Shown here: piece by piece, positions 27,612 to 32,485 of the stretch | How positions within the stretch are numbered: position 1 is the first letter of the stretch | Layout: every line of letters starts with the position of its first letter | From: Halorubrum kocurii JCM 14978 | GTDB lineage: Archaea; Halobacteriota; Halobacteria; Halobacteriales; Haloferacaceae | Reading direction: 5' to 3' | DNA: 37,682 bases | Assembly: GCF_000337355.1 (NCBI RefSeq) | Contig: NZ_AOJH01000093.1 | Location: 11,238-48,919 of the forward strand | Translations under genes and position numbers: made by a program | Notes under the pieces: generated by a model | Database searches by the model: none | Told to the model about the DNA's origin: nothing | The model's input: the letters and a program-made list of their open reading frames with translations, nothing else

Positions 27612-28073
27612 CTACGGCACCACCGCGTCGCCCGGCGGGTCCAGCACGCCGAGCTCCTCTAACGCGCGCAACACCACGATCGCCTCGACGACGTCGCGCG
27701 CCTCGGTGTAGGGGTCGTCGACGGCGTCGAGCGTCGCCTCGGCCTCCGAAACGAGTCGCGCCTCTAACTCCGTCTGGTCCGTCTCTTCTTTCGTCGCCGA
27801 CAGCAACGCCTCGTGGTCCTCGCGGAGGTCGAGCGAGACGTGCGCCGCGTTACACCGCGAGAGCGGGTGGGTGTCCATCTCGACCGCGAGATCGCTCACG
27901 AGCTCCCAGTCGTCGGCGCAGAAGCGGAGCGTCACCGCGCCGACCACGTCGCGCCAGGAGATCGGGCCGCCGTTGTCCATGAGCCGGATCGCTCGGGGCG
28001 GCACCGCGATCCGGGTATGGGTGTCGTCCCGGCCGCACAGGCAACAGGGGGTGTTCTTCAGTCCGGCGTACAC
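27612..28073 (-). CDS. Uncharacterised haloarchaeal protein with a CxxC motif
   Basis: The 153-residue acidic protein starts at a GTG (VYAGLKNTPCCLCGRDDTH). Cys10 and Cys13 form CxxC; further cysteines appear in LRFCADDWELV and LSRCNAAH. The four could make one zinc site. The C-terminal half is helical and Glu/Asp-rich. The combination of an N-terminal CLCGR knuckle and WRDVVGAVTLRFCADDW resembles other haloarchaeal zinc-ribbon-like proteins, but I cannot name a family. It converges on acyP, with 38 bases between the stops. Confidence 0.65.
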   Translation of the reverse strand: MYAGLKNTPCCLCGRDDTHTRIAVPPRAIRLMDNGGPISWRDVVGAVTLRFCADDWELVSDLAVEMDTHPLSRCNAAHVSLDLREDHEALLSATKEETDQTELEARLVSEAEATLDAVDDPYTEARDVVEAIVVLRALEELGVLDPPGDAVVP

Positions 28074-28463
28074 GCCGAACTATACGGGTCGGAGAGTGGT
28101 GTGCGTTTCGGCGCCGAGAGTCAGCCGCCGGGGAGACAGTGTATAAACGGCGCGAGCGGAACGCCAATTGGATATAAATGAATGCGGTGCGGTGGCGCGT
28201 GCCTCCGAGCGGGCCGATGGCCCGCGAGGAGCCCGCGCGAGGGAGTCGCGAACGACGCGGGCGACCGGAGGGAGCCTCGAGTGAGCGACGAGGCTGGGGA
28301 GGCGTGAGGCTGCGGCTGTGCGGGGTGGGACTCAAAGGGGCAGTCGCCCTCGCGACTGGGGCTTTGGAGGGTGTCACCGCCGATTCGCGGTTGGCGACTT
28401 ATAAACAGCCCGTAACGGGAGCGATATCCACGTAGAGACAATAGGCGGTCTCTCAGCGTACGC
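28074..28463. other. Non-coding interval containing the hairpin element
   Basis: This 390-base stretch between two minus-strand genes has no credible protein. Minus-strand frames here (for example 28121-28471) are basic and Pro/Ser/His-rich. It contains two similar decamers, TATAAACGGC at 28142-28151 and TATAAACAGC at 28400-28409, on either side of a hairpin-rich segment, plus a box A-like ATATAAAT at 28172. Confidence 0.7.
28181..28397. repeat. Hairpin-rich non-coding element, probably a dispersed Halorubrum-type repeat
   Basis: The segment holds five successive inverted repeats: GCGGGCC/GGCCCGC (28209-28225, loop 3), CCCGCG/CGCGGG (28232-28261), AGCCTCG/CGAGGCT (28273-28295), the nested CAAAG-GGG-CAGTCGC/GCGACTG-GGG-CTTTG (28333-28366, loop 4) and ACCGC/GCGGT (28376-28391). 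The phrases around GGACTCAAAGGGGCAG and GGGGCTTTGGAGG match a repeated intergenic sequence I recall from Halorubrum genomes; that part is memory and was not searched. TATA-like elements at both edges could drive transcription inward from either side. It may be an RNA gene family, a small non-autonomous mobile element, or both. Confidence 0.6.
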
Positions 28464-28853
28464 TTACCCACTACACTCCGCGAGCCACTCGTGGGCCCAG
28501 TCGTCGATCTCGTCGAAGACGGGCGCGAGCGACTCGCCCTTCGGGGTGAGGCTGTAGTACGTCGCCACGGGCGAGTCCTCCTCCAGCCGGCGGTCGACGA
28601 AGCCGGTCTCCTGGAGGTCGTCGAGCACGCGCGAGAGCGTCCGGGCGTTCGCGTCGGTCTCGCGTTTCAGCTCGTTGAACCGCGACTCGCCGTTCAACAG
28701 CTCGTGGAGCACGACGAGCCGCCAGCGCGAGCCGATCTGCTCGAGCGAGTCGACGACCGGACACGGCGTGTCCGGGCCGGACGAGGCATCCGCGTCGCGC
28801 TCTCCGTCGGTCGTGTCCGCCGGATCGGCGCCGGCGAGGTCCTGCGATGACAT
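28464..28853 (-). CDS. HxlR-family transcriptional regulator (CatR/YodB-like)
   Basis: The 129-residue regulator has an acidic disordered N-terminus (1-28) and then a winged helix of the HxlR/DUF24 family. CPVVDSLEQIGSRWRLVVLHELLNG (31-55) is followed by the recognition region RFNELKRETDANARTLSRVLDDL (58-80) and the wing YYSLTPKGESL (99-109). Cys31, just before the first helix, matches the position of the redox-sensing cysteine of Bacillus YodB and CatR. It is divergent from the DoxX gene, and the VOC dioxygenase gene follows. The repeat GTTA-N5-TAAC (28858-28870) next to its own start suggests autorepression. Sensing of quinones or other electrophiles is inference. Confidence 0.86.
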   Translation of the reverse strand: MSSQDLAGADPADTTDGERDADASSGPDTPCPVVDSLEQIGSRWRLVVLHELLNGESRFNELKRETDANARTLSRVLDDLQETGFVDRRLEEDSPVATYYSLTPKGESLAPVFDEIDDWAHEWLAECSG

Positions 28854-30007: not shown

Positions 30008-32485
30008 CTATTCGGTGGGAGTCCCCCGTTCGTCTCTCTTTCCACCCGACCCGGTGTTGGCGTCTGAACCGGCGTCGTCCGAACCGGTGACGCGTGGGAA
30101 CGCACCGTCCATCGGCGGCAGGGATTCGAACGCCCGAGTCGTCGTCGCCATTTCGCCTGGTCCGACGGTCAGTTCCGTTCCGTCGGAGAAGGAGACGTCA
30201 GAGCGCTCGTCGGCGGCGTTGTAAGCGACGTACGTTCGCACGTTTCCGTCCCGGAAGACGCTGTAAAGCGGCGTGTCTGCCGACACCGACGCGTCCGGCA
30301 CTCCGACGGCATCGAGGGTGTGGATCCAGTGGGCGGCGTGTGCGCGCGATTCCGCGAAGTCGCCGGCAGCGTATTCGGTCTCGTACCAGGAGCGCGCTTC
30401 GTCCGGGGCCGAGAGCGCGCGAAACTCCCAGAGAACGTCCGTGTACCATCCGAGGTCGAACGTTTCGTCGCCGTCGTCGTTGTCGAGGAGCTCCGCCCAG
30501 TTCGCCGAGGCGGCGTCGCGGTTCCACCCGAGGTAGAACGAGTGCCCACCGATCGGCAGGTAATTGATGGCGTGGATCGACTCCGCGTCCTGGTTGAACC
30601 ACGTGGCGTATGCGTATCCCCGACCCCAGACCATTCCGGCGGAGTCGTACGGCCACGCGTCGGGGAGGTTCTCGTTGGCGATATCGAACCAGTATTCGAG
30701 CGCCGCGTGGACCTCGTGGGTGTAGAGGTAGATACCCGCGTCGCGGATCTCCTCGTCGCCGGTCAGTTCGCCCCAGAGGATCAGGGCGGCGTAGGCGTTG
30801 ATCGCTTCCGACGACGACTCCTGGTTGCAGCCGGCCGGCAGCTCTCCGCTTCCGGACGCCCACGAGTGACCCGCGTACGGGCTAAAGTTTCGAAAGAGCG
30901 GGTACTGGGAATCGCCGCGGTCGGGATTCGCGTAATCGCGAACGAGGAGATCGACGACTCCTCCGTACGCTTCCTCACGCGCCCACTGGGGGTCGACCCG
31001 AGCGAGTTCCGCCGCCGCCTTCACCCAATAGCCGTAGTGAAAGTGGTGATCGTTCAGATCGGCGTCGGCACCGAACCCCATCGGCGCTCCGTTCAACGTC
31101 CCCCAGACGTCGTCGTACCAGAACAGGTCGCGCTCGTCTACGTCGCCGTCGGATGCGGCGGAGAACCACGTTTCCAGCTCATCGCGGATCGCGTTCCTGA
31201 AGCGTTCCGCGGCGGCCCCGTCGTCGACCTGCTCGGCGATGGGAGCGAGCTGGAGGAGCCGTTCGAAGTTTTTCCCCGTCCAGTAGGTCCCATCGCCCTG
31301 CCAGTCTCGGATGAGCGTGTCTTCGGACTCGACCGCCTCGACGTGGTCTGCGAGGTTCGGGACGTCCGCCGCGTCGGGAAGGAACGGCAGAATCCCGCGA
31401 TACGGGAGTTCAGTCGTGAAGCGTGAGCCGGCATAGACCGGCATCTCACCCCGCGGCGAGACGTACGACCAGTCGCTCAGTTCGTCCCCGGTTCGCTTCG
31501 CCTGATGGGGGTAGAGAGCGGTCAGCGTCTCGTCGGCGCGGCCGTGTTTCGCTTCGAGTTCGAACTCGTAGTCGGTGACGACCGCCGATCGCTCTGCATC
31601 GTACTCCCAGGTGACCGTGGTGTCCGTGACGAAGGCGTATGCGCGCCGTCGGTAGGCGTTCAGGACGTCCGGAGAGGCCTCGGGGAGCAGTGCGACGGAG
31701 ACGTACCCCTCACCGTCGAGCCGGGACGAGACGACGTCTCCGTCGACACCCTCCCAGGCGGCTCCCGGCGGTGCGAACAAGCCGTAATGGTGTCCCCCGA
31801 CCGAGACGCCCAAGACGTGGCTTCGCTCGTGCCAGACCGAGACCTCGCCTTCGAACGCCACGTCGACCCCGCCCCCCGTCGTCTCGAAGTAAACGAACGG
31901 CGACCCTTGTGTGAGCGTCGCGTCGAGGCTCGCGTCACCGCTGGACCGTCGATACGTGACCGACCAGTCGCCGTAGTCGGCGACTTCGGCCGGCACGTCA
32001 GCGTCGACGTGCGGGTGAGAGACGGTCAGGTCGGGGTCGATCGGACCGGTGCTCGCGTCCGGTGATGACACCGACTCCGCGAAGTCGTCCGTCCGTTCGC
32101 CCCAGGAAAAGGGCGCATCACCGACCTGCCACTCGTCGGGGTACGTGACGGCGAGACCCGCCTCGGTCACGCGCGCCGCCAACGGGTGTATCCAGAGGTT
32201 CTCCGAGAGCGGTCGCCACAGGAGTGTTGTCCACCAGTCGTTCGTCGGATATGGGCTTGAGAGTTCGTCTACCGCGTATATCGTTCGGGGCGGAACACTC
32301 GCTTCGCCCGGTGTAACCCGCGCGATGCTGCCCGCACCGACCCGTTCGATGTCGGCGTCCGCCGCGCTCGCGTTGAAGCTCCCGGTAGCGGTGATGACGC
32401 CGCCCGCGAGCAACCCTTTGAGCCAGGTGCGTCTGCGTACGTTCGATCTCGATCCGTCGATCGGGGTGTATGAGTCGTCTTCCAT
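30008..32485 (-). CDS. Secreted GH81 endo-beta-1,3-glucanase
   Basis: This 825-residue glycoside hydrolase of family 81 would cut beta-1,3-glucans such as laminarin. The N-terminus NVRRRTWLKGLLAGGVITATG is a Tat signal with a likely cleavage near ASAAD (residues 39-43), so the protein is exported folded. A beta-rich domain (60-320) contains SPYPTNDWWTTLLW. The (alpha/alpha)6 catalytic domain includes WYDDVWGTLN, the acid-residue motif LNDHHFHYGYW (Asp479), FRNFSPYAGHSWASG and GCNQESSSEAINAY (Glu556 and Glu560). The C-terminal tail is Gly/Asp/Ser-rich. Codon use is visibly less GC-rich than in its neighbours and an AT-rich island precedes it, suggesting acquisition by transfer. The leader is about 45 bases. 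Confidence 0.92.
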   Translation of the reverse strand: MEDDSYTPIDGSRSNVRRRTWLKGLLAGGVITATGSFNASAADADIERVGAGSIARVTPGEASVPPRTIYAVDELSSPYPTNDWWTTLLWRPLSENLWIHPLAARVTEAGLAVTYPDEWQVGDAPFSWGERTDDFAESVSSPDASTGPIDPDLTVSHPHVDADVPAEVADYGDWSVTYRRSSGDASLDATLTQGSPFVYFETTGGGVDVAFEGEVSVWHERSHVLGVSVGGHHYGLFAPPGAAWEGVDGDVVSSRLDGEGYVSVALLPEASPDVLNAYRRRAYAFVTDTTVTWEYDAERSAVVTDYEFELEAKHGRADETLTALYPHQAKRTGDELSDWSYVSPRGEMPVYAGSRFTTELPYRGILPFLPDAADVPNLADHVEAVESEDTLIRDWQGDGTYWTGKNFERLLQLAPIAEQVDDGAAAERFRNAIRDELETWFSAASDGDVDERDLFWYDDVWGTLNGAPMGFGADADLNDHHFHYGYWVKAAAELARVDPQWAREEAYGGVVDLLVRDYANPDRGDSQYPLFRNFSPYAGHSWASGSGELPAGCNQESSSEAINAYAALILWGELTGDEEIRDAGIYLYTHEVHAALEYWFDIANENLPDAWPYDSAGMVWGRGYAYATWFNQDAESIHAINYLPIGGHSFYLGWNRDAASANWAELLDNDDGDETFDLGWYTDVLWEFRALSAPDEARSWYETEYAAGDFAESRAHAAHWIHTLDAVGVPDASVSADTPLYSVFRDGNVRTYVAYNAADERSDVSFSDGTELTVGPGEMATTTRAFESLPPMDGAFPRVTGSDDAGSDANTGSGGKRDERGTPTE

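Follow-up and report, generated by a model that had tools for sequence, protein, structure and literature searches.

A large, old family of dispersed intergenic elements with covarying hairpins in the archaeal order Halobacteriales

Introduction

What is the hairpin-rich sequence that fills an intergenic stretch of the Halorubrum kocurii genome, and does it act as a folded strand? The window that we analysed, a 37,682-nucleotide stretch of H. kocurii DNA, holds this sequence between two minus-strand genes, one for a 153-aa protein (27612-28073) and one for a regulator (28464-28853, minus strand) that, judging from its sequence, we take to be of the HxlR type. A preliminary description made from the letters alone had placed a chain of inverted repeats at 28181-28397 and offered three readings: a family of structured RNAs, a non-autonomous mobile element, or a nucleoid or replication motif. 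The inverted repeats, including a nested stem with GGG/GGG at 28333-28366, are present as described, and the element proper runs from about 28185 to 28398, close to the extent first given. Farther along the window, the minus-strand ORF 30008-32485 (825 aa, with a Tat-like signal) looks from its sequence like a secreted glycoside hydrolase.

Results

A lone copy compared with its relatives

Taken as a lone sequence, the window copy has an ordinary fold energy relative to shuffled sequence (z of -0.79 on the plus strand and -1.80 on the minus strand; -0.17 for 28185-28373 folded alone), and the surrounding 601 bases hold 24 inverted repeats; since the fold of a lone copy is no better than that of its shuffles, inverted repeats alone prove nothing in DNA so rich in G+C. 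We relied on two covariance models, R1 for hairpins A and B (built from 25 copies) and R2 for Module II (built from 38 full copies). The window contains one match to each, at 28185-28309 for R1 (81.2 bits, E 1.8e-18), with the window copy being among the 25 training sequences, and at 28323-28373 for R2 (E 1.5e-6), which was not trained on the window copy. The same copy is thus at chance level as a lone sequence and far beyond chance against its relatives.

Architecture of the element

Full copies consist of two modules. In Module I, invariant purine-rich linkers connect two hairpins; Module II forms a single long hairpin in which tandem G-A pairs recur and a GGG/GGG loop is invariant. In the window, Module I (28185-28309, plus strand; delimited by R1 and covariation) comprises hairpin A, a GAGGGA linker, hairpin B and GAGGCTGGGGAGGCGTGAGG. 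Hairpin A (28195-28238, plus strand), supported by covariation, carries tandem G-A mismatches between the arms GCGCGTG-c-CTCC-GA-GCGGGC and GCCCGC-GA-GGAG-CC-CGCGC. A kink-turn was considered for this hairpin and rejected, because the would-be bulge pairs and covaries. The linker GAGGGA (28239-28244, plus strand) is invariant among the 25 aligned copies; hairpin B (28245-28289, plus strand), recognised by covariation and the loop survey, has a sequence-variable stem made bigger here by an inner C(GGA)G-looped arm, and it is followed by GAGGCTGGGGAGG (28290-28302, plus strand), a motif that is almost invariant. Module II (28323-28373, plus strand; R2) is present in a truncated form, in which a CCTC loop replaces the usual arm of ~90 nt. 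Its basal stem (28333-28366, plus strand; inverted repeat I5), CAAAG-GGG-CAGTCGC / GCGACTG-GGG-CTTTG, holds the GGG/GGG loop at 28338-28340 / 28359-28361, and the 3' tail GAGGGTGTCACCGCCGATTCGCGGTTGGCGAC (28367-28398, plus strand) is a single unit, the tail being tandem (about 57 nt) in other copies.

Sequence was read in the regions surrounding individual copies, and thirty copies set in one orientation share a plan that begins with a TTTATAAA-type box, TGCGGTGGCGCG with hairpin A, GCGAGGGA, hairpin B and GAGGCTGGGGAGGYGTGAGG. After a few variable bases come GGGTGGGACTCAAAGGGGCAG, an arm whose length varies (~4-220 nt), CTGGGGCTTTGG and a tail that ends in TTTATAA and can be repeated at about 57-nt spacing. 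The resulting elements measure about 190-330 nt and have multiple stems. By a script criterion, Module II was long in 53 of the copies examined and took other forms in 22.

Several departures from this plan were seen. Inserts of ~50 nt, each a double hairpin of two G+C stems joined by TKCCAG or GCCAA, sit inside element loops at L006, L009, L015, L025, L074, L127, L130 and L141; their stems differ between copies yet remain paired, and they resemble nested REP-type or SMR-type elements. A second insert type occurs at L019, L024, L057 and L142. Many copies from Natrinema and copies related to them (L155-L165, L168, L171, L176-L179, L182, L186, L190, L194) have, after Module I, another conserved stretch, about CCCTGTTGCCACGATAGCAGGACG, instead of Module II. 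In some genomes Module I also occurs as close inverted pairs, head to head or tail to tail, as at L155 (1925-1974 on the plus strand and 2097-2138 on the minus strand), L184, L115, G166:C1:3345118-3345386 and G166:C1:3651923-3652136.

Copy number and taxonomic spread

A DNA search of the H. kocurii genome, in which 40 of 191 candidate places were scored, gave 58 matching pieces; R1 found 84 places at E < 0.01. The preliminary description had taken parts of the sequence to match one that recurs in Halorubrum genomes, and this was borne out: R1 matched in 52 of the 52 sampled genomes of the genus, with at least 150 copies in each of two 3-Mb genomes. Beyond the genus, R1 found the element in 14 of 28 genera of the family and weaker relatives in 35 of the 86 genera of a class sample, and a deeper search in four other genera gave 64, 24, 22 and 17 copies. 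R2 reached farther, to 295 of 391 genomes and 72 of the 86 genera of the class sample. In a phylum-wide sample, R2 matched 56 genomes, all of the order Halobacteriales, and none outside it. One subfamily occurs in, among others, Natrinema, Natronococcus, Natronorubrum, Haloterrigena, Halosimplex, Haladaptatus, Halococcus, Halogranum, Salinibaculum and Halorussus, and copy number across the salt-loving archaea as a whole ranges from a few to at least 150 per genome. The element belongs to a family of dispersed intergenic elements that is very large and old and, as far as sampled, limited to the order Halobacteriales.

Compensatory change and strand choice

The stems change sequence yet stay paired on one defined strand. 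In A1, an unfitted alignment for which we specified the structure, 88.1% of cells were paired against 74.2% in shuffles, and double-changed cells numbered 82 against 27.2. The other sets were fitted to the model and hence biased towards it: A2 (72 copies, genus) gave 97.0% paired against 79.9% shuffled, with 284 double-changed cells against 77.8; A3 (31 copies, other genera) 85.2% against 60.7%, with 183 against 70.2; A6 (47 copies, named genomes) 76.3% against 58.0%, with 193 against 61.4; and A4, orthologous copies from the window's own site alone, 81 double-changed cells against 23.3. When partners were slid by one base, pairing collapsed to about 17-29% in every set. In the long hairpin of Module II, 18 of the 31 predicted pairs held kept double changes, the GGG/GGG loop was invariant in 38 of 38 full copies, and two tandem GA/GA steps were kept in 38/38 and 35/38 copies while adjoining pairs covaried. 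The search for compensatory changes that had been suggested as a check on the structured-RNA reading thus came out in its favour, with double-changed cells above shuffles in all five of these sets.

G-T pairs outnumbered A-C pairs on the element strand by 46 to 9 in the genus, 41 to 10 in other genera and 74 to 10 in A5, the Module II alignment, which like A1 was unfitted; because the excess holds in every set, the plus strand is the one selected to fold. Compensatory stem changes and folding on one strand, two properties expected of a structured non-coding RNA, are both present. Since the hairpins are kept paired by compensatory mutations, the folded single strand itself probably does the work.

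Covariation might also arise without function if palindrome correction, by template switching during replication, matched the arms of hairpins to each other. The arms do turn over fast, and a few copies (L010, L027) are perfect palindromes; however, such correction would convert the tandem G-A pairs and the GGG/GGG loop to Watson-Crick pairs, whereas these are kept in 35-38 of 38 copies, and it leaves both the invariant unpaired linkers and the excess of G-T over A-C unexplained. We consider this explanation highly improbable.

Genomic context and inheritance

Neighbouring genes were convergent at 21 sites, tandem at 31 and divergent at 12, these orientations being rough, as they come from an ORF caller based on codon-position G+C. 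No Pfam family appeared in more than three of 102 neighbours of copies. A cis-regulatory leader or 3' UTR element was rejected, as these sites and neighbours show no fixed position or orientation relative to any gene class.

At the window's own site, the element has kept its position and direction in ~18 of 30 genus genomes with the orthologous regulator; at a second site, 15 of 30 genomes matched well and 2 weakly. Genomes lacking the element at the window's own site show unequal deletions or replaced neighbours, with no clean empty sites among those read; at locus L123 the flanks are joined at TATATAAACGATCG, which fits recombination between flanking TATAAAC repeats. At the two sites, orthologous copies did not on average resemble each other more closely than paralogous copies did (difference 0.002, permutation p 0.26), and in the closest genome pairs orthologous copies were 90-98% alike. 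The equal likeness of orthologues and paralogues indicates fast sequence turnover, whether by rapid change or by exchange between copies, and such exchange may feed the covariation.

Among the matches listed for six multi-contig genomes, 150 of 150 copies sit on the main chromosome; in the five genomes with computable shares, 13.8 copies were expected elsewhere (P about 10^-6.5, from shares computed with rounded genome sizes). Of 2.9 million viral contigs 2 carry the element, as do 4 plasmid records. The two putative viral carriers (IMG/VR), L151 (5679-5743) and L152 (13529-13593), have one Module I match each.

These data bear on the possibility that the element is a non-autonomous mobile family, PATE-, MITE- or REP-like, that spread in ancient times and whose copies are now mostly relics. 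Its copies are dispersed and intergenic, vary from 12 to at least 150 between genomes, are flanked by TATAAAC direct repeats and form inverted pairs in some genomes (L155, L184), and haloarchaea offer a precedent in the PATEs (PMC3119063). On the other hand, site and orientation are shared in ~18/30 and 15-17/30 genomes at two loci, the vacant sites read are unequal deletions rather than clean empty sites, and the plasmid and viral records are few; relics would, moreover, lose compensatory pairing, yet pairing is kept. Such an origin is distinctly unlikely in our estimation. A MITE or currently mobile element found no support, given the rarity on plasmids and viruses and the lack of clean insertion polymorphism at the sites read, so that the mobile-element reading of the preliminary description is weak for the present day.

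Its third reading, a nucleoid or replication motif, drew no support as regards spacing or polarity. On the complete chromosome G021 (95 copies among the matches listed), gaps between copies had a CV of 1.07 against 0.98 for random placement, and 49 copies lay on the plus and 46 on the minus strand, in 47 runs against 48.5 expected. With positions random and strands mixed, an evenly spaced or replication-polarity motif was rejected.

TATA-like edges and the promoter question

Three flanking TATA-like sequences are present, and within the genus TATA-like edges prove to be a genuine character of the family (A+T peak, 68 copies). The outer left TATAAAC decamer TATAAACGGC (28142-28151) is direct repeat D4 of the flanking TATA-like repeats; the left box ATATAAAT (28172-28179) falls in the family's A+T peak 8-21 bases 5' of the element, and the right box TTATAAAC (28399-28406) lies near the family position, 40-46 bases 3' of GGGGCTT. 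Boxes of the TTATAAAC type recur outside the element at roughly 34-41 nt spacing, or 57 nt on the right, both here and at L130, L142, L018 and L069; such flanking units are shared by different loci and may mark where deletions end.

In genus copies the TATA-like box peaks 14 bases 5' of GGTGGCGCG, and it is invisible in several copies from other families. If the TATA box begins at -26 from the transcription start, as in PMC8707807, a box ~14 bases before the element would place the start inside the 5' arm of hairpin A. That arm is constrained by pairing (one position is G-T in 14 of 69 copies and otherwise unchanged), and the TATA-like box is therefore probably not the promoter of a folded RNA.

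RNA or single-stranded DNA

We favour, at a probability of about one half, a structured non-coding RNA element: the folded strand would be RNA with three hairpins and a common partner, acting as an independent unit. Copies would be transcribed from promoters or by read-through from neighbours, and the transcript would fold into a three-hairpin RNA whose invariant unpaired purine motifs and tandem G-A helix a common partner, probably a protein, would recognise. The element would act as an independent non-coding RNA unit rather than as a regulator of one adjacent gene. Its copies keep their inherited sites on the main chromosome and disappear by deletion, in some cases apparently between flanking TATAAAC repeats. 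Pointing towards RNA are the choice of strand, the invariant unpaired purine motifs, the tandem sheared-type G-A pairs and the independence from genes; transcribed palindromic elements also have a haloarchaeal precedent (PMC10544981). Against it, a promoter for the element is not identifiable, RNA genes seldom reach copy numbers of at least 150 in one genome, and the loops, among which C(GNA)G triloops prevail while GNRA is rare and UUCG absent, are as typical of stable DNA hairpins as they are of RNA.

Because the loops match stable DNA loops, the main rival is that the folded strand is single-stranded DNA, a hairpin site for a DNA-handling protein when the strand is exposed in replication, repair, recombination or past HUH-type transposition, as with integron attC sites and REP hairpins. 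A heuristic script, which misread some hairpins, found that C(GNA)G predominates among the loops of hairpin B, where N can be any of the four bases (33 A, 28 G, 16 C, 10 T), that GNA makes up 107 of 162 triloops while its complement TNC makes up 0, and that hairpin A tetraloops are GNNA in 30 of 67 and GNRA in 5 of 67, often C(GNNA)G with a pyrimidine at the third place, UUCG being absent. The hairpin B loops match a known family of stable DNA structures, the d(GNA) triloops with a C-G closing pair (PMC5815330). The scarcity of G-T in the genus (46/1884 cells), the very high copy number and the main-chromosome restriction also fit DNA. Yet G-T is commoner outside the genus (41/762), orientation is unbiased along the complete chromosome, no transposase or recombinase is enriched among the 102 neighbours, and GNA loops are found in RNA too. 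We regard the DNA reading as possible but clearly less probable than RNA. A more specific form of it, with chromosome-wide single-strand hairpin sites in Halobacteriales (~10 to at least 150 per main chromosome), one strand being selected for folding as DNA and the stable d(GNA)/d(GNNA) loops and tandem G-A helices serving a dedicated recognition protein, seems rather unlikely.

Discussion

Relation to known elements

The window copy, L064 and four distant copies had no match in Rfam 15 that came near a gathering threshold. A search of mainly open-access papers on repeats in haloarchaea, on REP elements and PATEs and on surveys of structured RNA turned up no description of the family, and an earlier mention elsewhere is possible; motif strings in full-text literature gave unrelated primer-like matches only, and the vesicle-associated ncRNAs of haloarchaea are mentioned without sequences, so no link to the element could be drawn.

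In its workings the element seems, by analogy, closest to dispersed structured repeats such as the BOX elements of Streptococcus pneumoniae and the bcr1-type repeats of Bacillus cereus, likewise multicopy, modular, intergenic and non-coding with a conserved secondary structure. Those are confined to one species group, whereas this element spans most sampled genera of an order and keeps orthologous sites; going by the descriptions, its two covarying hairpins and tandem G-A hairpin also set it apart. Like integron attC sites, it conserves a one-strand structure while sequence varies, but attC sites are arrayed beside an integrase gene and function as single-stranded DNA in its folded form, and the element's copies are scattered singly.

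As a haloarchaeal palindromic repeat it may be likened to the PATEs of Haloquadratum and other haloarchaea (PMC3119063), which are also non-coding and multicopy; transcription is known for one PATE in HRTV-DL1, a virus of Hrr. lacusprofundi, and a PATE of Halobacterium is reported to be active as an ncRNA (PMC10544981). PATEs, however, have near-terminal palindromes in common with IS605-type transposons and may be carried by viruses and plasmids, whereas the element is on main chromosomes; no transposase was among the 25 commonest families in the 102 neighbouring genes, and an IS605 link was not seen there. REP/BIME sequences with their RAYTs offer another likeness, as intergenic hairpins in hundreds of copies with some inverted pairs, but REPs are single hairpins of 20-40 nt (PMC3733652), against ~190-330 nt and multiple covarying stems here, and no RAYT association was found among the families of those 102 genes. 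Viruses of Halorubrum have intergenic repeats with a TATA-like box too, the class I repeats of halovirus HF2, whose units measure ~58 bp (PMC8707807); they are virus promoters with other motifs, and only the ~57-nt TTTATAA tail units of the element are similar in length. The features that define a PATE, a REP or a currently mobile element are absent or unsupported in this element.

Significance

The analysis adds a family, apparently unlisted in Rfam, that occurs in most sampled genera of a well-studied archaeal order at up to at least 150 copies per chromosome. A practical caution follows, as haloarchaeal intergenic comparisons, start-site maps and terminator calls run through these elements. 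If the DNA-site system were true, it would serve genome maintenance, recombination or chromosome identity in a role for which no counterpart has yet been described. Genetically tractable haloarchaea are suited to asking whether RNA or single-stranded DNA folds, and the fast turnover under strict pairing, together with the conservation of tandem G-A pairs, makes the family a natural data set on such helices in cells with molar potassium.
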